Of a stretch of DNA of 64,000 bases, positions 9,431-63,135 are shown piece after piece. The stretch spans positions 620,001 to 684,000 of the forward strand of contig NZ_JAFBIL020000001.1 of NCBI RefSeq assembly GCF_016809835.1, in the 5' to 3' direction. The stretch's first letter is position 1; the number at the start of each line of letters is the position of its first letter. A program made the position numbers and the translations under genes. The notes under the pieces were generated by a model. The model saw only the letters and a list, made by a program, of their open reading frames with translations. It was not told the origin of the DNA and did not search any database. The DNA comes from Massilia soli (lineage in GTDB: Bacteria > Pseudomonadota > Gammaproteobacteria > Burkholderiales > Burkholderiaceae_D).

Positions 9431-11110
9431 TTACAGGCGCTTGCCCGGCATTTTCTGGCCGCCCTGGTGCAGCACCATTTGCACCACGCCGTCGGCGTTT
9501 TTCTCGAAGTGGAATTCGGCGTCGACCATGTTCGAGAAGAACACCGTGTCCGACAGCGGCAGGATCTCGACAGCTGGCTGGCCGGTTCCCTGGGCAAGCA
9601 TTTTCTCGCCGTCGCGCTTCACTTCAAGGGCGAATCCGGGCGCCAGCTCGTAGCGGCCCAGATAGGCGTCGAAGGTTGCCGGCGCGATCTTGACCGCGGT
9701 GCGCTCAAGCGGCTTGGCGGCAGTGCGCGCGTGACTGACCGGATCGCCGCCATCGTTGGTCATGTTCAGGTGGCTTACTTCGCCCTTCGCGTTGCGGACA
9801 AACTCGAGGGTGGCAAGGGAATCGGCGAGGTAAAACCCATTCTGCTTGTAGGCCGTCAGCGGAATGCGCTCACGGCCGGTGCGCTGCATGGTGAGCTTGC
9901 CGTCCTCAAGGCGGATCGTGCGCGTGTTGTCCTTGTCGATGGTGTACACGCCGACGTATTGTTGCAGCGTCGCCGGCGCGACCGTGACGGGCTTGTGGTC
10001 CGGGAATGGCTTGCCCATGGCAAGGGCGGCGATCTTGGTCGCGACCATCTCCGGATGGGTCCGCCCTGAGTCGGTGTTCGACAGCACCGCCACATAGACC
10101 TTGTGCGCCGGCACGCTCAGCGCGTAGGTCGAGAACCCGTTGATGCCGCCGCCGTGGGCGATCTTGGCGCCTCCTTGCAGTTTGCCCAATTCCCATCCGT
10201 AGCCATAACCGGTCGATTCGCCGCTGGCCAGTCTGTAAGGCGTGAACGCCTTCTTCCAGCTGGCCGCCTTGAGCAGTTTGCCCGCGCCGATCGCCTTGTC
10301 CCAGCGCGCCAGGTCATCGACCGTCGATACCAGCGAGCCTGCCGCGTACGGCTGCGTCATGCTGAGCGGACGGGCCGCGCCGAAGCCGGAGTCGCCCTTG
10401 CTGTGGCCGGCGGCGCGCACGCCCTTGACCCGTTCATTGCCCTCGAACGCGGTGTGGTCCATGCCCAGCGGCGTAAAAATGCGCTGGGCGAGAAAGTCCG
10501 CGTACGACTTGCCCGACACCTTTTCGATGATGGCACCGAGCAGGAAATAACCCGAGTTGTTGTAGTCGAAGCGCTCGCCCGGGGAAAACAGCATCGGGTC
10601 GTTCTTGAAGCTGTCGATCATCTGGCTGACGGTCAGAACCTTGTCCATCGTGTCGGCGTAGGCCGGCTTGCCGGTATAGCTCTGGATGCCCGAGGTGTGG
10701 GTCAGCAAATGCTCGATGGTGATTTTCTTGCCCTGTGTCGGGTAGTCGGGCAGGAAGCGGGTGATCTCGTCGGTCAGGGCCAGCTTGCCGTCCTCGGCCA
10801 GCATCAGGATGGCGACGGCGGTGAATTGCTTGGTAATCGAGCCCAGGCGCAGCGTCATCGCCGCGTCCATCGGCTGCTTGCTGGCGACATCGGCCAGGCC
10901 GTATGCCTTGCGGAAAACGGTGGCCCCGCCGCGCGTGACGATGATGGTGGCGCCCGGCTCATCGGCCTTGTAATAGCCGCGCACGCTGGCGTCGATGCGC
11001 CCGGCAAGGGCGTCGCTGGCGGGCGCCGCCGCAGGCGCCGCATGGACGGCGCTAAACGAGGCAGGCAATAACAGTAGTGCGGCAAGGCTGACGGCGGTAA
11101 GTCTCGGCAT
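9431..11110 (-). CDS. Exported serine hydrolase, class C beta-lactamase fold
   Basis: A 559-residue protein with a signal peptide (LAALLLLPASFSAVHA). The class C/esterase core shows S-x-x-K as LGSITKQFTAVA near residue 92, Y-x-N as FDYNNSGYFLLGAI near 180, and HGGGINGFSTYAL near 320. After residue 375 come two C-terminal lobes, each with a repeated theme (TLQQYVGVYTI and TFDAYLGRYEL), typical of DUF3471-like extensions. Members act as D-aminopeptidases, esterases or penicillin-binding proteins, so resistance should not be assumed. It ends 7 bp from the convergent amidase gene. Confidence 0.85.
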   Translation of the reverse strand: MPRLTAVSLAALLLLPASFSAVHAAPAAAPASDALAGRIDASVRGYYKADEPGATIIVTRGGATVFRKAYGLADVASKQPMDAAMTLRLGSITKQFTAVAILMLAEDGKLALTDEITRFLPDYPTQGKKITIEHLLTHTSGIQSYTGKPAYADTMDKVLTVSQMIDSFKNDPMLFSPGERFDYNNSGYFLLGAIIEKVSGKSYADFLAQRIFTPLGMDHTAFEGNERVKGVRAAGHSKGDSGFGAARPLSMTQPYAAGSLVSTVDDLARWDKAIGAGKLLKAASWKKAFTPYRLASGESTGYGYGWELGKLQGGAKIAHGGGINGFSTYALSVPAHKVYVAVLSNTDSGRTHPEMVATKIAALAMGKPFPDHKPVTVAPATLQQYVGVYTIDKDNTRTIRLEDGKLTMQRTGRERIPLTAYKQNGFYLADSLATLEFVRNAKGEVSHLNMTNDGGDPVSHARTAAKPLERTAVKIAPATFDAYLGRYELAPGFALEVKRDGEKMLAQGTGQPAVEILPLSDTVFFSNMVDAEFHFEKNADGVVQMVLHQGGQKMPGKRL

Positions 11111-11486
11111 GATGCAATCCTTTGGAGAATTGGAAGCCGCGCTCGGCCTCGCAAGACAATCATCCTAAAAGATTGTGATTCTGAAAAAACAATGTTTCCG
11201 ACAAAACGCCCTTTTTTGACCCTGAAATGCAGCCGGCTTGCGCGAGCCCCATGGCGGTCAGGACATTGAGGCAGAGCAAATGCCAGCTGATCAGCAGGAA
11301 CGCCGCCGCCGCGTGCAACTCCAATGATCAGTACGCGAGAAGTATGGGATGTGCAGGCAGAGTAGAGCGCGTACCGCCGATACCAGCTGGGGCGAACAGC
11401 GTGTGGCTCGTGGAGCTAGTGTAGGCACGGTACTCAGGGGCACGGTTGACCTGGGTGGATAACTCTTCGAGGTAGGAGGAAATTTT
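11111..11486. other. Intergenic stretch without a supported gene
   Basis: About 375 bp upstream of the small-ORF/HsdS/HsdM patch. The open frames here (for example 11227-11424 plus and 11328-11537 minus) have no family character and no ribosome site. GC content falls somewhat near 11150-11215 where AAAA and TTTT runs occur. I see no repeat or RNA gene. Confidence 0.5.
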
Positions 11487-22099: not shown

Positions 22100-22996
22100 C
22101 TAGGCGCGCAGGCGCGCCAGCACGCCGTCGAGGATGTCGAGGTCGGCAAAGTCGATGATCATCTGGCCCTTGCCCTTGGTGCCCATCTTGAAGACAACCG
22201 GTGTGGCCAGCTTGTCCGACAACTCCTCTTCCAGGCGCACGATGTCGCCTGATTTTTCCTTTTGACGCGCTTCGGCCGGCGGCGACGACTGTTCTTCCAT
22301 CGTGCGGGTGACCAGTTTCTCGGTCTCGCGTACCGACAGGCGCTTGGCGACCACCTGGTTGGCCAGGTTGATCTGGCTGGCCGCGTCGACCGCCAGCAGC
22401 GCGCGCGCGTGGCCCATGTCGATATCGCCGGCCATCAGCATGGTTTGCACCGGGCCGGCCAGGTTGATCAGGCGCAGCAGGTTCGACACCGCGCTGCGCG
22501 AACGGCCCACCGCGTTGGCGGCCTGCTCGTGGGTGAACGCGAAGTCCGAGATCAGGCGCTGGATGCCCTGCGCTTCTTCCAGCGGATTCAGGTCTTCGCG
22601 CTGGATGTTCTCGATCAGCGCCATCGCGGCGGCGGCCTGGTCGTCGACGTCGCGCACCAGCACCGGCACCTGGTCCAGCCCGGCGAGCTGCGCCGCACGG
22701 AAGCGGCGCTCGCCGGCGATGATCTCGTACTTCACTTCGCCGGTGATGCTGTCCTGCCCCACGGGGCGCACCAGCACTGGCTGCATGATGCCCTGGGTTT
22801 TGATCGACGCGGCCAGCTCGGCCAGCGCGCCTTCGTCCATGCGGGTACGCGGCTGGTACTTACCAGGCTGCATCTGGCTCACGGACAGCACCGAAGGCTT
22901 GTCCTGGTCGGCGAGCGCGCCGTTGCCATTGCCGTCAGCGCCGCCGAGCAGTGCGTCGAGGCCGCGGCCGAGGCCCTTGAGTTTTTTGGTTGCCAT
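22100..22996 (-). CDS. parB: Chromosome partitioning protein ParB
   Basis: A 298-residue ParB. The CTP-binding domain has GERRFRAAQLAGLDQVPVLVRD near residue 94 and ALIENIQREDLNPLEEAQGI near 125; the helix-turn-helix is THEQAANAVGRSRSAVSNLLRL near 155-176; the C-terminal dimerisation region ends LDGVLARLRA. ParB loads at parS and spreads as a CTP-dependent clamp, guiding origin segregation with ParA. It follows parA by 19 bp. Two parS sites occur at 26574 and 26613. Confidence 0.96.
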   Translation of the reverse strand: MATKKLKGLGRGLDALLGGADGNGNGALADQDKPSVLSVSQMQPGKYQPRTRMDEGALAELAASIKTQGIMQPVLVRPVGQDSITGEVKYEIIAGERRFRAAQLAGLDQVPVLVRDVDDQAAAAMALIENIQREDLNPLEEAQGIQRLISDFAFTHEQAANAVGRSRSAVSNLLRLINLAGPVQTMLMAGDIDMGHARALLAVDAASQINLANQVVAKRLSVRETEKLVTRTMEEQSSPPAEARQKEKSGDIVRLEEELSDKLATPVVFKMGTKGKGQMIIDFADLDILDGVLARLRA

Positions 22997-23015
22997 TCGT
23001 TGTTACTCTCTCTGA

Positions 23016-23786
23016 TTACATTGTCTTGATACGTTTGACCATCTCGGCGCCGAAAGCGATATACGCCTGCGCGCCTTTCGAGGACGGGTCAAACACAACG
23101 CCAGGGATGCCGTACGACGGCGCCTCGGCGAGCCGCACATTGCGCGGGATGATGGTATTGAATACCTTGTCGCCGAAGTGCTCTTCCAGCTGGGCCGAGA
23201 CCTGCTGCGACAGCGTCATGCGCGGATCGAACATCACGCGCAGCAGGCCGATGATCTTCAGGTCGGTGTTCAGGTTGGCATGCACCTTCTTGATCGTGTT
23301 GACCAGATCGGACAGCCCTTCCAGCGCGTAGTACTCGCACTGCATCGGAATGATCACGCCATGCGCGGCGCACAGGCCATTGAGCGTCAGCATCGACAGG
23401 GCGGGCGGGCAGTCGATCAGCACGAAGTCGTATTCGCTGTCGACCGCAGCAAGCGCATCCTTCAGGCGGCGCTCGCGGTTCTCCAGCTGCACCATCTCGA
23501 CCTCGGCGCCGGCCAGCTCGCGGTTCGACGGCAGCACGTCGAAACGGCCCGCCTCCGAACGCAAGCGCGCCGTCGTCACATCCGCCTCGCCCAGCAGCAC
23601 TTCGTAGATCGATGACTTGAGGCCGGCCTTGTTGATGCCGGCGCCCATTGTCGCGTTGCCTTGCGGATCAAGGTCGACCAGCAGCACGCGCTGGTCAAGC
23701 TTGGCCAGTCCCGCGGCCAGGTTCACGCTGGTCGTGGTCTTGCCTACCCCGCCCTTTTGGTTTGCAACGCAGAATATCTTTGCCAT
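23016..23786 (-). CDS. parA: Chromosome partitioning ATPase ParA
   Basis: A 256-residue ParA/Soj ATPase without an N-terminal DNA-binding extension. Deviant Walker A: NQKGGVGKTTTSVNLAAGLA near residues 9-28, with both lysines; Walker A' VDLDPQGNATMG near 38; Walker B FVLIDCPPALSMLT near 120. It forms a dynamic gradient on the nucleoid that pulls ParB-parS complexes. The upstream gap of about 105 bp to rsmG is AT-rich with repeated TTTATACCGTTTATA, a possible operator. Confidence 0.96.
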   Translation of the reverse strand: MAKIFCVANQKGGVGKTTTSVNLAAGLAKLDQRVLLVDLDPQGNATMGAGINKAGLKSSIYEVLLGEADVTTARLRSEAGRFDVLPSNRELAGAEVEMVQLENRERRLKDALAAVDSEYDFVLIDCPPALSMLTLNGLCAAHGVIIPMQCEYYALEGLSDLVNTIKKVHANLNTDLKIIGLLRVMFDPRMTLSQQVSAQLEEHFGDKVFNTIIPRNVRLAEAPSYGIPGVVFDPSSKGAQAYIAFGAEMVKRIKTM

Positions 23787-23818
23787 GTATGTTCTTATCG
23801 TAGACGCAACAATAACGA

Positions 23819-23896
23819 TTTATACCGTTTATACTATCAAAACCGTTTGTACGATTTATATAGTATATCGGGTATAAACTATTTATACCGTTTATA
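23819..23896. promoter_or_regulatory. AT-rich repeat cluster upstream of parA
   Basis: TTTATACCGTTTATA occurs twice exactly, at 23819-23833 and 23882-23896, with an imperfect palindrome at 23869-23890 (CGGGTATAAAC against GTTTATA-type arms) between them. The rsmG stop codon lies in the second copy. In an otherwise GC-rich region this is a strong candidate for parA-parB promoter and operator sequence. Confidence 0.5.
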
Positions 23897-24548
23897 TGGT
23901 TTGATCGGATCGCTTGATGAAAACGAGATGCCGCTCCGCTTCCAGCCCTGGAACCTTGATCGGCTGAAGCCCTGTCGTTTTCCACTCTGCCGGCAGTCTT
24001 TCCTGCTCCTCCGGCGGGGCCACGCCTTTCAGCGCGATGAATTGCCCGCCCTCGGCCAGCAAGTGTCCCGACCAGTTGACGAAATCGGACAGGTCGGCAA
24101 AGGCCCGCGATGTGATGACGTCGAAAAGCTGCTTCACCTGCAGTTCCTGCACCTTGGCCGTGTAGACCGTGACATTGGCCAGTCCCAGTTCTGCCTTTAC
24201 CTGGGTCAGGAATGCTGTCTTCTTGTGTACCGTGTCGATCAGCGACACTTTCATGTCTGGCCGCGCGATCGCCAGCACAATGCCTGGCAAACCGCCCCCT
24301 GCTCCCACGTCCAGCACATTCTGCGCCTGCGCGAATGCCGGGACCGCGGTCAGCGAATCGAGCAGGTGCAGCGTCACCATCTGCATCGGGTCGCGCAAGG
24401 AGGTCAGGTTGTACACCGAATTCCACTTGAACATCAGCGCGAGATAATCGAGCAGCTGTTCGTGCTGTTTGTCGCTCAGGTCCAGCTTCAGTTCTTTGAT
24501 GCCATTTGCCAGTACAGGCGCCACTGCGGCGCGGTCGAAGAATTTCAT
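23892..24548 (-). CDS. rsmG: 16S rRNA (guanine-527-N7) methyltransferase
   Basis: A 218-residue SAM-dependent methyltransferase (formerly GidB). Motif I is [21 protein letters not shown] near residue 78, followed by [17 protein letters not shown] and the later [16 protein letters not shown]. It methylates the 530 loop of 16S rRNA. The start overlaps the mnmG stop by 4 bp (ATGA), so the pair is translationally coupled. The mnmG-rsmG-parA-parB order is the classical origin-proximal cluster. Confidence 0.95.
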
Positions 24549-26476
24549 CCAGCCAGCTCCTCGTTCAGCGAGGCAAAGCCTTTCGCGCCGCGTTTCTTTA
24601 AATGTACCAGCAAAAGCGAGATTGCGGCAGGTGTCACTCCGGAAATTCTTGACGCCTGGCCCAGGGTTTCAGGGCGCTGCTTGTCGAGCTTCTGGCGCAC
24701 TTCGATCGACAGCGCGGTGACGTCGAGGTAGTTGAAGGTCTCCGGCAGCTTGAGGTTTTCGTAGTGCTCGTGGCGCTCTACTTCCTTGGCCTGGCGGTCG
24801 ATATAGCCTGCATATTTCAGCTGGATCTCGATCTGCTCCTTGACGGCAGGATCTTCGACGCCTGGGCCGGCCAGGGCCTGGCCTTCGGCGCCAACCATGC
24901 CCATCAGGGTGTCGTACTGTACGCCCGGGCGGCGCAGCAGGTCGGCCAGCGAATATTCGCGCTCGATCGCCTGGCCAATGACACGCTCGGATTCGGCCGC
25001 CGCCAGGATGCGCGGATTAACCCACGTCGAACGCAGGCGCTCAAGTTCGCGCGCAACGGATTCGCGCTTGGCCTCGAAGGCTTCCCACTGTGCGTCGCCC
25101 ACGACGCCCAGTTTGCGGCCGATCTCGGTCAGGCGCATGTCGGCATTGTCTTCACGCAGGCTCAGGCGGTACTCTGCACGGCTGGTGAACATGCGGTAAG
25201 GCTCGGCCACACCCTGCGTGGTCAGGTCGTCGACCAGCACGCCCAGGTAGGCTTCGGCGCGGCCGGGCACCCAGGCTTCCTCGCCCTTGGTCTGCAGCGC
25301 CGCGTTGATACCGGCGAGCATGCCCTGCGCCGCCGCTTCTTCGTAGCCGGTGGTGCCGTTGATCTGTCCGGCGAAGAACAAGCCTTTGATGGCCTTGGTT
25401 TCCAGCGATGCTTTCAGGCCGCGCGGATCGAAATAATCGTATTCAATCGCATAGCCGGGCCGCAGGATGAACGCGTTCTCCATCCCTTTCATCGAGCGCA
25501 CCAGCTCCAGCTGGACGTCGAATGGCAGGCTGGTGGAGATACCGTTCGGATAGAACTCATTGGTCGTCAGGCCCTCTGGCTCGAGGAAAATCTGGTGCGA
25601 TTCCTTGGCCGAGAAGCGGTGAATCTTGTCTTCGATCGACGGGCAGTAGCGCGGGCCGACGCCTTCGATCATGCCGGTGTACATCGGGCTCCGGTCGAGG
25701 CCGGCGCGAATGATGTCGTGGGTGCGCGCATTGGTGTGCGTGACCCAGCACGGCACCTGGCGCGGATGCATGGCGGCATTGCCCATCACCGAGAACACTG
25801 GCACCGGATCGAGGTCGCCCGGCTGCTCGGACATGGCGGAAAAATCGATACTGCGGCCGTCGATGCGTGGCGGCGTGCCGGTCTTCAGCCGCCCTTGGGG
25901 AAGCTTCAGCTCCTTCAGGCGGGCCGACAGCGACATCGCCGGCGGGTCGCCTGCCCTGCCCGCTGAATAGCTTTGCATGCCCACGTGGATCTTCCCGTCG
26001 AGGAAAGTACCCGCCGTCAGCACCACCGCGCCGGCACGGAACTGCAGGCCAATCTGCGTGACGGCGCCAACCACACGCTCGCCTTCCACCATCAAGTCAT
26101 CCACAGCCTGCTGGAAAAGCCACAGGTTAGGCTGATTTTCCAGGCGTGAGCGGATCGCCTGCTTGTACAGGATGCGGTCGGCCTGGGCGCGCGTGGCGCG
26201 TACGGCCGGCCCTTTCGAACCGTTCAGGATGCGAAACTGGATGCCGGCTTCGTCGGTGGCAATGGCCATTGCGCCACCCATGGCATCGACTTCCTTGACC
26301 AAGTGGCCCTTGCCGATACCGCCAATTGACGGGTTGCAAGACATTGCACCGAGGGTTTCGATGTTGTGGGTGAGCAGCAAAGTCTTCTGGCCCATGCGGG
26401 CAGAAGCTAAAGCGGCTTCGGTACCGGCATGGCCGCCGCCGACGACGATGACGTCGAATTCAGTTGGAAATAGCAT
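24545..26476 (-). CDS. mnmG: tRNA uridine-5-carboxymethylaminomethyl modification enzyme MnmG
   Basis: A 643-residue FAD protein that with MnmE modifies U34 of several tRNAs. The FAD loop is [21 protein letters not shown] near residue 9; [23 protein letters not shown] near 47 is a signature; the second, [11 protein letters not shown] near 155, and [11 protein letters not shown] near 275 hold conserved residues including a cysteine; the helical C-terminal part carries the conserved [14 protein letters not shown]. Full length. Two parS sites lie 98 and 137 bp upstream of the start. Confidence 0.96.
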
Positions 26477-26573: not shown

Positions 26574-26589
26574 TGTTTCACGTGGAACA
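26574..26589 (+). promoter_or_regulatory. parS site 1
   Basis: TGTTTCACGTGGAACA matches the chromosomal parS consensus (TGTTNCACGTGAAACA) at all but one position, and its reverse complement occurs at 26613. ParB would load here. It lies just upstream of mnmG and about 10 kb from the proposed oriC. Confidence 0.9.
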
Positions 26590-26612
26590 GTCGAGATAGC
26601 GGCCGATGGGTA

Positions 26613-26628
26613 TGTTCCACGTGAAACA
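26613..26628 (+). promoter_or_regulatory. parS site 2
   Basis: TGTTCCACGTGAAACA, an exact reverse complement of site 1, 23 bp away from it. It fits the parS consensus fully. The two sites lie in the gap between mnmG and the convergently arranged TSUP gene end. Confidence 0.92.
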
Positions 26629-36459: not shown

Positions 36460-36531
36460 GGGCCCTCCCTCGTCTGAAACACAAGATTAACAGAAGCGAA
36501 AGCACTTGGGCAGGGGGCAGGACGAGCAGGG

Positions 36532-36754
36532 TGTGGATAACTCTATGAATATCCACAGGTACGGTTTGTGGATAAACCTGACTTTATTCACAAGCCGATT
36601 TTTGTCCAGAATTGATACCAGCCACATACAGAGTTGGCCGCTGGCTTATAAAACGCGTAAACGCTTGATTGCAGTGGAAAATATGGGCTTATCCACAGAA
36701 AAGTGCCTGCGTTAACCATTACTACTATGCTTGTATACATACCTTTTAAGTAAA
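36532..36754. repeat. Origin module L
   Basis: First copy: inverted DnaA-box pair separated by 8 bp (36532-36557), further boxes at 36567 and 36584, CGATTTTTGTCCA at 36597, TTATCCACA at 36689, ATTACTACTATG at 36718-36729, TTGTATACATAC at 36731-36742, and AAGTAAAC to 36754. AT-rich, purine-rich sequence follows (36743-36773), a possible unwinding region. Confidence 0.75.
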
Positions 36755-36926
36755 CAAGAAACAAAAAGAAAAGCACCGCGGCTTCGCCTGCGATGCAAAA
36801 TCGTCACACCCGGCCTCCGTTTGCAAAACTTGTTTTAAAGAAATTCACGATGCGTTTGAAAAAGCGGAAGTCCTGTCTTTTTTTAAAAGCTCGACCCTGG
36901 CAAGCCCAAAAGCCAACCTGACAAAC

Positions 36927-36951
36927 CAAAAAACCGGCGCTACGCGCCGGT
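36927..36951 (-). terminator. Intrinsic terminator between the two origin modules
   Basis: ACCGGCGC (36933-36940) and GCGCCGGT (36944-36951) form an 8-bp stem with a 3-base loop; on the minus strand six T follow. It would stop leftward transcripts between module R and module L. No minus-strand gene precedes it. Confidence 0.75.
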
Positions 36952-36956
36952 CGATC

Positions 36957-37180
36957 TGTGGATAAGTCACTGTATATCCACAGGATGAGATGTGCAGAAG
37001 CCACCTTCCTGTGAACAACGCGATTTTTATCCACCAACCATCCTTGCTAGATACAATCCTTGTTCAGCAGTTTACAAGTCACCTAAGTCGATGATCGTAA
37101 AGATGTAAACAGACTTATCCACAAAAATAAGCGCGTTTACTATCACTACTATTTTTGTATACATACTTACTATGTAAACC
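36957..37180. repeat. Origin module R
   Basis: Second copy: inverted DnaA-box pair with 8-bp spacer (36957-36982), weaker boxes at 37010 and 37027, CGATTTTTATCCA at 37021, TTATCCACA at 37115, ATCACTACTATT at 37142-37153, TTGTATACATAC at 37155-37166, and GTAAACC to 37180. First-to-last box distance is 158 bp, against 157 in module L. Confidence 0.75.
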
Positions 37181-37273
37181 AACAGAACAGCGGAACTTCG
37201 GGGACAACTCAACTGCCAGCAAACCGGCAGCACCGAAAACCGGTCTTCCAGAACGACAAACACGGAAAAAAAT

Positions 37274-58510: not shown

Positions 58511-59811
58511 GCCTGTTGGGTAAATCCGGATATCAGGAAACCGCATGCGGCTGGATTCCCACTGAGTGGAAAGCGACGCAAATCGGAGAGATGACAGAGG
58601 TCAGTGCAGGCGGCACGCCTGCTACCGGCAATGAGGAGTATTGGAATCCACCAGAGGTGCCATGGATGAGTTCTGGCGAGGTTCGCTTGCGGAGAATCCA
58701 TTCGACCGAGAAGAAAATTTCATACCTTGGACTGAAGAACTCGGCAGCAAAAATCTTCCCCAAAAAGTCAATTGTCATGGCGTTGGCTGGACAAGGTAAG
58801 ACGAGGGGATGTGTGGCTGTCCTGGAATCGGAAGTCGCGACTAACCAGTCACTGGCTGCCATTTATCCGTCTGACCAGTTTGAGACAGACTTTCTTTTCC
58901 ACAATCTTGATTGGCGATACAAGGAGTTGCGCTCACTGTCGTCTGGTGAAGGTGGACGGGGTGGCCTCAATTTGTCAATCATTAAATCAGTCCCTATTGG
59001 TCTTCCACCAATCCCCGAACAACAAAAAATCGCTGCCATTCTCACGGCCGTGGACGACAAGCTGAACATCATCGCCCGCCAGATTGTGGCCACGCAGAGT
59101 CTCAAACGCGGGCTGATGCAGACTCTGTTCAGCCGGGGCGTTGGCATCCAAAACGCCGATGGCCGCTGGGTGCCACATACTGAGTTCATAAACAAATCGT
59201 CGCTAGATATACCTGCCGTGTGGAATGTAAGACGGCTTGGCGACATAGCGCCGTTGATTAGGCGTCCCGTTGATATCAATCCTGACTCCGCCTACCCAGA
59301 GGTTGGACTGCGTTCCTATGGCAAGGGAACATTTCATAAGCCAGCACTTCTTGGCAAAGAGGTAGGCAACAAGCGGCTATTTGAAATCAAAGCTGGCGAC
59401 CTTCTGTTTTCAAACGTATTTGCGTGGGAAGGTGCTGTGGCGGTAGCAAAGCGTGAAGATGACGGACGATTTGGTTCACACCGATATATGACCTGCGTCG
59501 TGAACAAGTCTCAAGCTGATACCTCTTATGTATTCAGATATCTGACTACACCTTCAGGAATTGCCTCACTTACGCTGGCCTCTCCCGGAGGAGCTGGTCG
59601 AAACAAAACGCTTGGGTTGGGTGCATTGGCTAACATCACCATACCTTTGCCACCGCTAATTGAGCAGCAAAAGATTAGTCAAATTCTTGATGGGGTCGAC
59701 GCCAAACTTGAAGCGCTTGAATTGAGACGGACAAATGTTGAAACTCTCAAACGTGGCTTGATGCAAAAGCTCCTTACTGGAGAATGGCGGGTCAACGTGT
59801 CAAAGCAATAA
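58507..59811 (+). CDS. hsdS: Type I specificity subunit HsdS
   Basis: A 434-residue protein with two target-recognition domains: the first about residues 15-170 closing with [24 protein letters not shown], the second about 215-410 closing with [24 protein letters not shown]. The matching pairs of coiled-coil ends are the conserved regions that set the spacing between half-targets. AGGCCGGAG precedes the ATG. Contrast with the half-length HsdS at 11.75 kb. Target sequence cannot be read from this. Confidence 0.93.
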
Positions 59812-59853
59812 TTGCCCGAACGGGCACAATCACAAGAAAAAGAGGAAGAGCAT

Positions 59854-62800
59854 ATGGGGGGCGCAGAGAAAGTGGGTGTCGAAATCCCAGCAATCAATTT
59901 GCTGGTCAAGCTGGGTTACACTCATCTCCCCGGCAATAAGTTTCAGGTCGAACACCGCCACCTTGCCCCGATACTCGAAACCATACTCCGTCCCAGACTC
60001 CTAATTCTGAACCCTTGGTTGAGCGTCGCACCTGGCGGCGTCGATGCGGCGCTAATTGAGCTACGTAAGCGGGTGAACGACGACCTGATGCCCGCGAATA
60101 GATTGTTTTGGGAACAGGTCATACACCGCTCCGACATCCAGGTTAAGGGTGCCGACGGCAAACCTCGGAGCGTGCGTTTCCTCGACTCGACCTCGGCGGC
60201 CAATAACGACTTCTGCGTAGTGGACCAGTATGTGGGAAGGAATGCTAACGGTGACGTATTTCGCCCTGACCTGCTGTTGTTCATCAACGGCCTGCCGCTG
60301 GCGATTATCGAATGCAAGGCCAGTCATCATCGGCTGGATGAAGCATTGGCGCAACTGGACGGATATCAAGCGAGTTTTCCAGCGCAGTTTGTATTCAATC
60401 AGGTCTGCGTGGGCCTGAACCGGCGCGAGGGTTTGTACGGTGCCATCCTCACCAAGCCAGCGTTCTACGCACGTTACCGCTTGCAGGACACCGAAATGGC
60501 GACAGTTTCCAGTGTGCTAGGGGCGGACCCGAGCGCACAAGACCAGTTGTTGTGGGCACTTTTTGAGCCCAGCCGTCTTGTGGAGTTGGTTACCCATTTC
60601 GTGCTGTTCGAAACACGCGATGGCAAGACGGTCAAGAAGCTGCCGCGTTACCAACAATGGCGCGCGGTGCGCAAAACCATCGCCCGGCTGGCGGCGCCCA
60701 AGCCCATCGGCGGCGTGGTGTGGCACACGCAGGGCAGCGGCAAATCGCTGACCATGGCGCTGCTGGCCCGGATGCTGCGGGCCGATAGCACGGGACTGAA
60801 CAACCCGACCGTGCTGGTACTCACCGACCGCAAAGACCTCGACAAGCAAATCTTCGATACCTTTCACGCCGTCGGCATTAAGGCGATTCAGGCCGTGTCG
60901 GTGGATGGTTTGTTTAAGTTGCTGGGCAATGACTACGGCAGTATCTTCACCAGCACGGTACAAAAGTTTCAGGAGAACGAACAGTCGGACGCCCCCGCCG
61001 AGGCCTCTTCGGATGCGGACGCCACCACCCTTGAACCAACGCGATATCGGCGCGTGCGCGAGGGTAAGGACTTCTTCATTGTGGGGGAACGCAATGTATG
61101 CTTCGGTCAGTTTGACAACGACGGGGTAATGCAGGACGCCCAGTGGGAAGAGGTGAGCCGGGAGCAGGTCAACTTCAGGGTGCTGAGCGCAAAGCCGAAT
61201 TTCTATGTGCTGGTCGATGAAGCACACCGCAGCCAGTACGACTTCCTGGCCGCATTCATGCGCGCGAGTTTGCCCAACGCCAAATTTATTGCCTTCACTG
61301 GCACACCGCTGCTCAACGACGACAAGCACACGCTGGCCGAGTTTGGCGGGGACGCGTACATCGACGAATACCGCTTGCATGAGGCTGTGGCCGATGGCGC
61401 GACCCTGCCCATAAAGTATCAGGACGCCTGGGTGGACTTGACCCCCGATGCGCAGCTGGACCAGGCGTTCAAGGACCAGTTCGACAACGAAGTGGAGGGA
61501 CGACAGCAAGCCCTAAAAAAAGCGTTGCTGGCCCGGTGGAGGCAGGCTGGCGACCGTATGGAACAGGTCGCAGCCCATCTGCTCGAAAACTTTGTCGCTA
61601 ACGTCCAGGCCAAAGGGCTGAAGGCTATGCTGGTCTGCGACGGCCGCGACATGGCTGTGCGCTACAAAGATTTGCTGGACGGATTGATGGAAGAACGGAA
61701 AGCCAACGGCTTGCCGACCTTCGAAAGTCGAGTTGTCATCTCGCTAGCGAGTGCGACCGCGTCACGCACCGGCCTTTCGGTGCAGGAAGCCGCCGCCGAG
61801 TACAAGTTGGGCCGGGAACAGATTCAGACCATCGAAGAACGTATCCGGGCAGAGCTGCGTGACGGCAAACCACCGGTTGCCGTACCCGCGGAACAAGTGG
61901 CGAACTTCGTCAGCAAGTTGTTCCCGCTTCCTTATGGCGACGAGACCAAGGGCCGGGACGGTCTGCCCCAGGGGAATAATGTGGGCCTCATCATCGTTTC
62001 GGATATGCTGTTGACGGGATGGGACGCGCCGATTGTCGGAACCATGTACCTCGACAAGCCATTGAAGGAACACACGCTGTTGCAAGCGATTGCTCGGGTC
62101 AACCGCACCATGGCGGGTAAGAATGCGGGCTATATCGTCGATTACCATGGGGTGGTGGAACACCTCGACCATGCGCTGAAAGTCTACGGTGGTGCAGTGC
62201 AGCCAGCCCAAGTGTGGGAAGGCGTCGAGACCGAATTACCGAAGCTGCAAGCGACACTCGACCGTATTCTTAAACTTCTGCCGAAAACGCACGACCCGGC
62301 CGGGCAGCGCGAGGATTACAAGGATGATGCTGAGCGCTTCCTTGACCCGTCAAGTAGGCTGGACGCGGTAGAAGACTTCCTGGAGTTGGTCAAGCAGTTT
62401 AACCGCAGCATCGACATCATCTTGCCCGATGCGCGTGGCGTACCCTTCAAGCCGTACTTCACGCTGTTCGCGGAAATCCGCCTCATGCTGCGTGACAAGC
62501 TGCCGGGCAACACCTACCGCGAGCGCATCACAAAGCTAGAGTCTGTACTTTTGCAGCAACTGCTGGATGAGTATATCGCCGCGAGCCCGGCCAAAAGTCT
62601 GCTGGGCAAGGAGGTTTCGATTCTGGATGCCAGCGATATGGCCCGTCTTCGGAAACTGGCGAGCCCGGGTAGTCAGGCGCTGGTGATGAAAAACCAGTTG
62701 AAGCATACCATTGTCACCGGCAGAGACAAAGACCCAGCCTTCTTCGACAAGCTGGCCGAGGAACTGGAAAAGCTGCTGGCGGAAGAAGCCGCCGGCCGCA

Positions 62801-63135
62801 TCAGTCAGGCCCAGTTTCTGGAGCAGCTCGACCTGTTTGGTCAACGTATCAAAGACAAGGACAATACCGGCTTCTCTCATCCGGCGCATTCAGCCGTGTA
62901 TCACTACTTGGCCGCCTTATTGGCGGATGAAACAGCCAGGGTGGCAACTACCAAGCTGTTCCAAGATGTCCGCCTAAGTAGCGCAATTGCTGCGGCCAAC
63001 TGGAAACTGATGCATGACCTCCACCCGGAAGTCCGCGACTTGCTGCGCAAGTTGTTGATGCCCTTGGGCGGTTGGGAGCGCTCGGTCGCGCGCGACCACG
63101 CAAGCCGCATCCTGGATATTCTGCTCAAGAACTGA
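59854..63135 (+). CDS. hsdR: Type I restriction endonuclease subunit HsdR
   Basis: A 1093-residue motor-nuclease. The nuclease core is [21 protein letters not shown] near residue 140-160 (PD-(D/E)xK: D and E-x-K). The helicase has Walker [21 protein letters not shown] near 285, DEAH as [18 protein letters not shown] near 450, then [12 protein letters not shown] and the later [13 protein letters not shown] (motif VI). The ATG at 59854 has GAGGAAGAG upstream; the frame begins with a TTG at 59812, directly after hsdS. Full length. Confidence 0.95.

Follow-up and report, generated by a model that had tools for sequence, protein, structure and literature searches.

The replication origin of Massilia soli appears to be a compound one. 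A single gene-free gap of the chromosome, which is very probably oriC, holds two complete candidate unwinding units in tandem, and we give a probability of about 60% to the reading that both are opened and used, at least at times.

The gap and its two modules

The window, that is, the whole stretch of 64 kb that was analysed, belongs to a genome of 4.99 Mb in 39 contigs. Within it, a gap of 814 bp (36460-37273) holds both modules, called L and R here. It is flanked on one side by a gene that we take to be FabK/nitronate-monooxygenase-like (its NCBIfam matches lie below their cut-offs), and on the other by the gene of a 5'-methylthioadenosine/SAH nucleosidase (MTAN), whose product has Massilia agrisoli and M. 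polaris as its nearest named relatives. The window also contains parB, parA, gidB and gidA, together with atp genes. Farther away, about 22 kb from the origin, lower-GC DNA at 59812-63135 encodes the R subunit of a type I restriction enzyme (Pfam HSDR_N, SWI2_SNF2).

Each module is about 227 bp long and consists of an inverted DnaA-box pair, a second TTATCCACA, a short spacer, DnaA-trio-like triplets and AT-rich DNA (Table 1). The two are spaced by about 425 bp and have the same orientation, with the opening side facing the MTAN gene. The equal layout described in the earlier note was recovered in full: the inverted pairs with their 8-bp spacers, the distances of 157 and 158 bp, a CGATTTTT-TCCA element in both modules (at +65 and +64) and, after the last box, ACTACTAT (36721, 37145), TTGTATACATAC (36731, 37155) and GTAAAC (36750, 37174). 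Its count of ten DnaA-like 9-mers lies between the nine boxes that the gap holds at up to one mismatch and the thirteen at up to two. The window has seven occurrences of TTATNCACA, where 0.54 would be expected, and six of these are inside the gap. The gap thus combines clustered DnaA boxes with AT-rich DNA and contains no genes, as expected of a bacterial oriC.

Table 1. Features of the probable origin region (positions in the window)
Feature	Position	Strand	Basis or remark
Module L (type A, GTTAAC)	36532..36758	+	leave-own-genus-out profile, E 2.4e-50; extent from match edges
Module R (type B, GTTTAC)	36956..37186	+	leave-own-genus-out profile, E 1.3e-48; extent from match edges
Exact TTATCCACA boxes	36532(-), 36567(-), 36689(+), 36957(-), 37115(+)		sequence
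One-mismatch boxes	36549, 36584, 36974, 37027		sequence
Two-mismatch boxes	36602, 36673, 36991, 37010		sequence
Inverted DnaA-box pair of L (TGTGGATAA, 8 bp, ATATCCACA)	36532..36557	.	sequence; kept in unit consensus
Second pair of L	36567..36592	.	exact box on - at 36567, TTATTCACA on + at 36584; first member conserved in type A
IHF-like site of L	36658..36670	-	no mismatch to consensus; 31 bp before second box
DUE-proximal DnaA box of L	36689..36697	+	sequence
Triplet region of L	36713..36727	-	top strand TAA CCA TTA CTA CTA; last three alone fit trio rule
AT-rich candidate unwinding stretch of L	36716..36765	.	72% AT
Inverted DnaA-box pair of R	36957..36982	.	sequence
Box TTATCCACC of R, inside TTTTT-TCCA element	37027..37035	+	sequence, unit consensus
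IHF-like site of R	37084..37096	-	two mismatches; same offset as L
DUE-proximal DnaA box of R	37115..37123	+	sequence
Triplet region of R	37137..37151	-	top strand TTA CTA TCA CTA CTA; third imperfect
AT-rich candidate unwinding stretch of R	37136..37185	.	74% AT
parB, parA, gidB, gidA	22100..26476	-	origin-side neighbours; parA match under family cut-off
Two parS sites	26574..26628 (starts 26574, 26613)	.	perfect matches to consensus

Several results indicate that L and R are true copies of one unit. Their alignment scores +39, with 145 of 224 columns identical (65%), while the best of 500 shuffles of R reached -47. Identity computed with cheap gaps was dropped as a test, because it gave 72% against a shuffled mean of 73%; it was the score with dearer gaps that separated L and R from chance. 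A profile of 77 modules, all from other genera, recovers both modules with very low E-values (Table 1) and has no match in 10 shuffled windows; elsewhere in the window its matches are weak (best E 0.021) and mostly on the reverse strand of the same locus. A 62-position core model, R1, whose training set includes L and R of the window, finds these two and nothing else in the whole genome, even at E <= 10.

The earlier note had set the possibility that the gap shows no more than random conservation in relatives as a ground for giving up its reading. Instead, it is the two modules that are specifically kept: in comparison with two close relatives they are 91-92% identical, versus 79% for the DNA between them. 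In distant relatives, the limits of many matches coincide roughly with the module edges (query 73-299 and 497-727, that is, window 36532-36758 and 36956-37186).

Probable position of the origin

The gene dnaA lies 283 kb from the modules (C11:939436). Three lines of indirect evidence bear on where replication starts, and because the sole parS pair is nearby and, in most relatives compared, the modules are closer than dnaA to the antipode of dif and the skew changes sign at them, we consider that the locus is very probably the chromosomal origin, as the note had supposed.

The parS pair listed in Table 1 is the only one in the genome at up to one mismatch. It is situated beside parAB-gidAB, about 10 kb from the modules.

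A dif-like site was found in 15 of the 16 genomes searched. The comparison of distances covers 12 of the 16, leaving aside G000 (a draft), G033 (in which no dif appeared) and, for want of module coordinates or exact lengths, G028 and G026. G123 has two dif-like sites, of which the better one entered the comparison. The 12 relatives are not independent, since G048 and G123 belong to one genus and G117 and G130 to another. The modules are closer than dnaA to the antipode of dif in 11 of them, and the median deviation is 0.7% of the chromosome for the modules versus 5.8% for dnaA (Wilcoxon p = 0.0015). dnaA is slightly closer in G130, and neither place fits in G138. In that complete relative (G138:C1), the dif-like site is off the antipode of the modules by 0.32 and off that of dnaA by 0.26 of the chromosome, which suggests unequal replichores or a large insertion.

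For GC skew, four relatives were sampled at 20 stretches of 20 kb per genome. In the interval from dnaA to the modules, the skew amounts to -0.017 +- 0.006 in G048, +0.016 +- 0.006 in G001 and +0.010 +- 0.007 in G030; in all three the sign is that expected for a start at the modules, and the flanks agree. The fourth, G070, has the right sign at a weak value (-0.008 +- 0.008), with flanks near zero. The skew switch that the earlier note had named as a check therefore falls at the modules, not at dnaA, in three of the four relatives, and the pattern of a bacterial oriC, a skew switch with the terminus opposite, is found in most of the relatives compared by either measure. In the window's own contig, which is draft sequence, there is hardly any GC skew around the locus, too little to decide, and skew at fourfold sites is noisy per 20 kb. 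The coding share of the + strand is 0.31 and 0.39 to the left of the modules and rises to 0.50 on their right, in weak agreement.

Two other sites of the genome involve DnaA or its boxes. At G000:C22:322255-323221 (L012, about 10255-11221) there is a tandem array of eight DnaA boxes in the same orientation, five exact and three with one mismatch, and in front of seven of the eight, at a constant distance, stands an IHF-like ATCA-N-TT element. A search of 60 relatives, own genome included, matched the DNA of the array in 26, and the array looks like a datA- or DARS-like locus for DnaA control, judged by its motifs. As a second origin, this cluster (G000:C22:322315-323213) was set aside because core model R1 finds nothing there. 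At G000:C22:58484-58822, a short DnaA-family match, presumably Hda, has one exact DnaA box about 340 bp downstream, at 59159.

A unit shared across the family

To describe the unit, 40 loci of relatives were hand-picked from the 93 of 145 family genomes that match the gap, giving 41 loci with the window. A pattern found 87 cores in them (window included), and two missed ones were added by hand; the resulting set of 89 units is incomplete, as the genomes of L095 and L103 have one unit more by R1 count. The shared plan starts with TGTGGATAA and, 8 bp on, (A)TATCCACA. A third box follows at about 35 bp from the unit start and is stronger in type A; then come the TTTTT-TCCA element near +64, the IHF-like YAANNNNTTGATW site and, 156-160 bp after the first box, the second box TTATCCACA. 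After the spacer, GTTAAC (type A) or GTTTAC (type B) leads into triplets ending in A and then into TATA-rich DNA. Type A comprises 55 units (one GTCAAC and one GTAAAC among them) and type B 34.

How many units a genome carries varies. With R1, 113 of the 145 family genomes match (20 with one unit, 72 with two and 21 with three) and 32 do not, in a search with the stricter filters of a large search, over many draft genomes, some of them in the training set, and with units counted per genome rather than per locus. Two or three units are thus found in 93 of the 113 matching genomes; since 20 of the 113 have a single unit and 32 of the 145 none, two are not required in general. At the level of the order, 20 of 300 genomes match R1, 9 within the family (own genome included) and 11 outside, with E-values from 1.2e-8 to 7e-4. 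Two units are present in Massilia agrisoli, M. polaris, M. atriviolacea, M. rubra, M. aquatica, M. frigida and M. arenosa, among others, and three in M. psychrophila, M. horti and three Rugamonas species. M. cavernae has one, on a contig that ends about 175 bp before it. Among 25 MTAN-relative loci, 18 carry units, and the seven without are Myroides and other distant MTAN matches.

Order and orientation are well kept. The MTAN-linked set consists of 25 of the 41 loci, window included, the other 16 having no MTAN match; 56 of its 59 units are on the MTAN strand. In all 19 MTAN-linked loci with both types, A precedes B towards MTAN (AB in 10, ABB in 7, AAB in 2), and the remaining ones are AA (2), BB (1) and AA in opposed orientation (3). 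L121, outside this set, has the order A-B-A. The units are 2-3.6 kb apart in L093, L094, L116, L101 and L102, and in L114 the MTAN gene itself lies between them. Two loci have near-identical units in opposed orientation (L099, 4111-4328 and 4875-5092; L114, 4311-4528 and 5534-5751), which suggests recent copying or gene conversion between units.

In a tree of the 89 units, the types stand mostly apart, with 5 changes where shuffles average 27. A supported clade (95/84) unites the 23 Massilia-like A units, and the 19 B units are its weakly supported neighbour (94/55). Because the tree keeps A and B mostly apart and places the Massilia-like units in separate groups, we regard L and R, on this comparison, as old paralogues, each of which has been kept.

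Triplets, IHF-like sites and AT-rich DNA

According to excerpts of PMC8287927, a DnaA-trio element requires three or more 3'-NAN-5' triplets in a row, no more than 16 bp after a box, a longer spacer being accepted if a weak box intervenes. The triplets of R begin 13 bp after the box; those of L begin 15 bp after it, and its three good ones 21 bp after. With the imperfect triplets left out, the trios of the window lie far from the box, that of L most, and by the strict rule both copies would count as imperfect, again L most. Good fits exist among the relatives, for instance L107:4845, with TTA CTA TTA CTA CTA 13 bp after the box. In the alignment of 65 cores, every third column is an invariant A across five triplets, a pattern that we read as the DnaA-trio period on the other strand. 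The duplicated basal unwinding unit of the earlier note therefore holds for layout and homology and less well for the triplets of the window; unwinding itself is a prediction.

The IHF-like sites, scored with the consensus, are a regular part of the unit. At up to one mismatch, a site is present in 68 of the 89 units, versus about 5.9 of 89 in first-order shuffles, and in 63 of these 68 (63 of the 89 units) it lies exactly at -31 from the second box; in a control, the first 60 bp of the unit, the score was reached in 2 of 89. An IHF-like site at a set distance from the DUE-proximal box, the E. coli arrangement, is thus recognizable by sequence. Four genes of the HU/IHF family were found in the genome, by a search that does not separate HU from IHF.

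Both AT-rich stretches fall within the lowest 0.02-0.22% of the window in duplex stability. The window has several further gaps that would melt as readily, and a few that are less stable.

Proposed working and alternative readings

The model that we propose joins the BUS of B. subtilis (excerpts of PMC8287927) to the IHF-assisted left half of E. coli oriC (excerpts of PMC10380432). DnaA would attach to each unit at two places, the distal inverted box pair and the DUE-proximal TTATCCACA, and IHF would bend the DNA at the site 31 bp before the proximal box, so that the DnaA groups are brought together. From there, a DnaA oligomer would grow along the complementary strand over the triplets and melt the AT-rich DNA, on which the helicase may be loaded. 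With two units some 425 bp apart, there would be two possible opening points. Binding, melting and the use of both units are deduced here from motifs and their conservation. The separate ancestry of the units, their fixed order and their differing spacer and triplet detail suggest unequal, complementary roles rather than a passive copy.

The question arises whether a single unit may suffice. One unit alone, more likely R, could be opened, the other being an auxiliary DnaA/IHF platform or a titration site relevant to timing. R has the shorter spacer and the better-fitting triplets, while L has its three good triplets at the end; the arrangement can be likened to the DUE-less part of bipartite origins, and the genomes with a single unit point the same way. 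An auxiliary unit would need neither triplets nor an AT-rich stretch, yet both types keep them across the 89 units, and we therefore consider this reading possible but rather doubtful. That the second unit is a recent neutral duplication, yet to decay, has in its favour the near-identical inverted copies of L099 and L114, in which copying recurs. In the window, however, L and R are far less similar to each other than each is to its counterpart in two close relatives (65% against 91-92%), and in the tree they group with different units of other genera, which leaves this explanation the slightest of chances.

It may also be asked whether the true origin is at dnaA, where many bacteria initiate replication. 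The module cluster would then be a DnaA-titrating or -regulating locus, and datA and DARS2 do have DnaA boxes and IHF sites (excerpts of PMC10380432). Such loci combine these two elements without an unwinding element, whereas triplets and AT-rich DNA are present at the modules. Moreover, the 20 kb around dnaA contain one DnaA box at up to one mismatch, core model R1 has no match there, and skew and dif put the origin at the modules in most relatives tested. On these four grounds (boxes, core model, dif and skew) we tend to exclude an origin at dnaA, which we hold to be highly improbable. The reading of a compound oriC with two units in use is the one that we favour.

Relation to known origins

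The E. coli oriC, with its DUE, box R1 and IHF site, shares the gidA neighbourhood with the present locus; it has one DUE and is not known to have a second complete unit. Its left half resembles the unit described here in having AT-rich DNA by a high-affinity box, with an IHF-like site some helical turns further in and additional boxes past it (excerpts of PMC10380432), the difference being that the unit is repeated here. With the BUS of B. subtilis and many bacteria (excerpts of PMC8287927), the likeness resides in the box, the spacer and the period-3 triplets on the complementary strand; in contrast, most matching genomes here have two to three units per origin, and the triplets of the window are imperfect. 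The BUS survey program, as these excerpts present it, narrows each origin to one candidate, so that multiplicity of units would not show.

The origins of Helicobacter pylori and Bacillus subtilis are bipartite, with dnaA lying between two parts, one of which contains the DUE (excerpts of PMC8235120). Two box clusters per origin are common to both systems, and in some relatives here the units are likewise kilobases apart. However, both parts of the present origin have opening elements and dnaA is distant, and it was accordingly not assigned to the Bacillus/Helicobacter type. Among other Burkholderiales, a survey of double origins places a hemE-side candidate origin 291 kb from the dnaA-side one in Ralstonia pickettii (excerpts of PMC4403523), and in Cupriavidus metallidurans a skew transition about 90 kb from dnaA has three perfect boxes in 213 nt (excerpts of PMC2864759). 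These are, like ours, candidate origins away from dnaA, likened here by description alone; a repeated unit, trios and an IHF site do not figure in the excerpted descriptions.

In the literature searched, most subscription journals and bioRxiv being outside it, we came across no account of an origin with repeated complete unwinding units, and none of the origin in Massilia or its close kin. What is new here is the spread of one to three units, the IHF-like site at -31, and the age and order of the A and B units. The spread, the IHF-like site and the age of the duplication also go beyond the earlier note.

Significance

Across the family, we tentatively envisage a single oriC built of one to three complete, separately evolving units and amounting to several potential origins clustered at one locus, with the Massilia-like A and B as distinct partners that both open or alternate, a generalization to which we would give somewhat less than an even chance. 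If it is true, A and B may, for instance, load one helicase each, or answer different levels of DnaA or IHF. Known origins, bipartite ones included, are described in the excerpts cited above with one place of strand parting. A multi-unit origin would raise the question of how many DnaA-driven openings are needed, how two helicases are loaded, and how initiation is kept to once per cycle. The relatives offer natural versions with one, two and three units, in tandem, inverted or spread out. The modules also provide a usable oriC position for the genomes of the group; in several of these the numbering starts at dnaA, which lies tens to hundreds of kb away.
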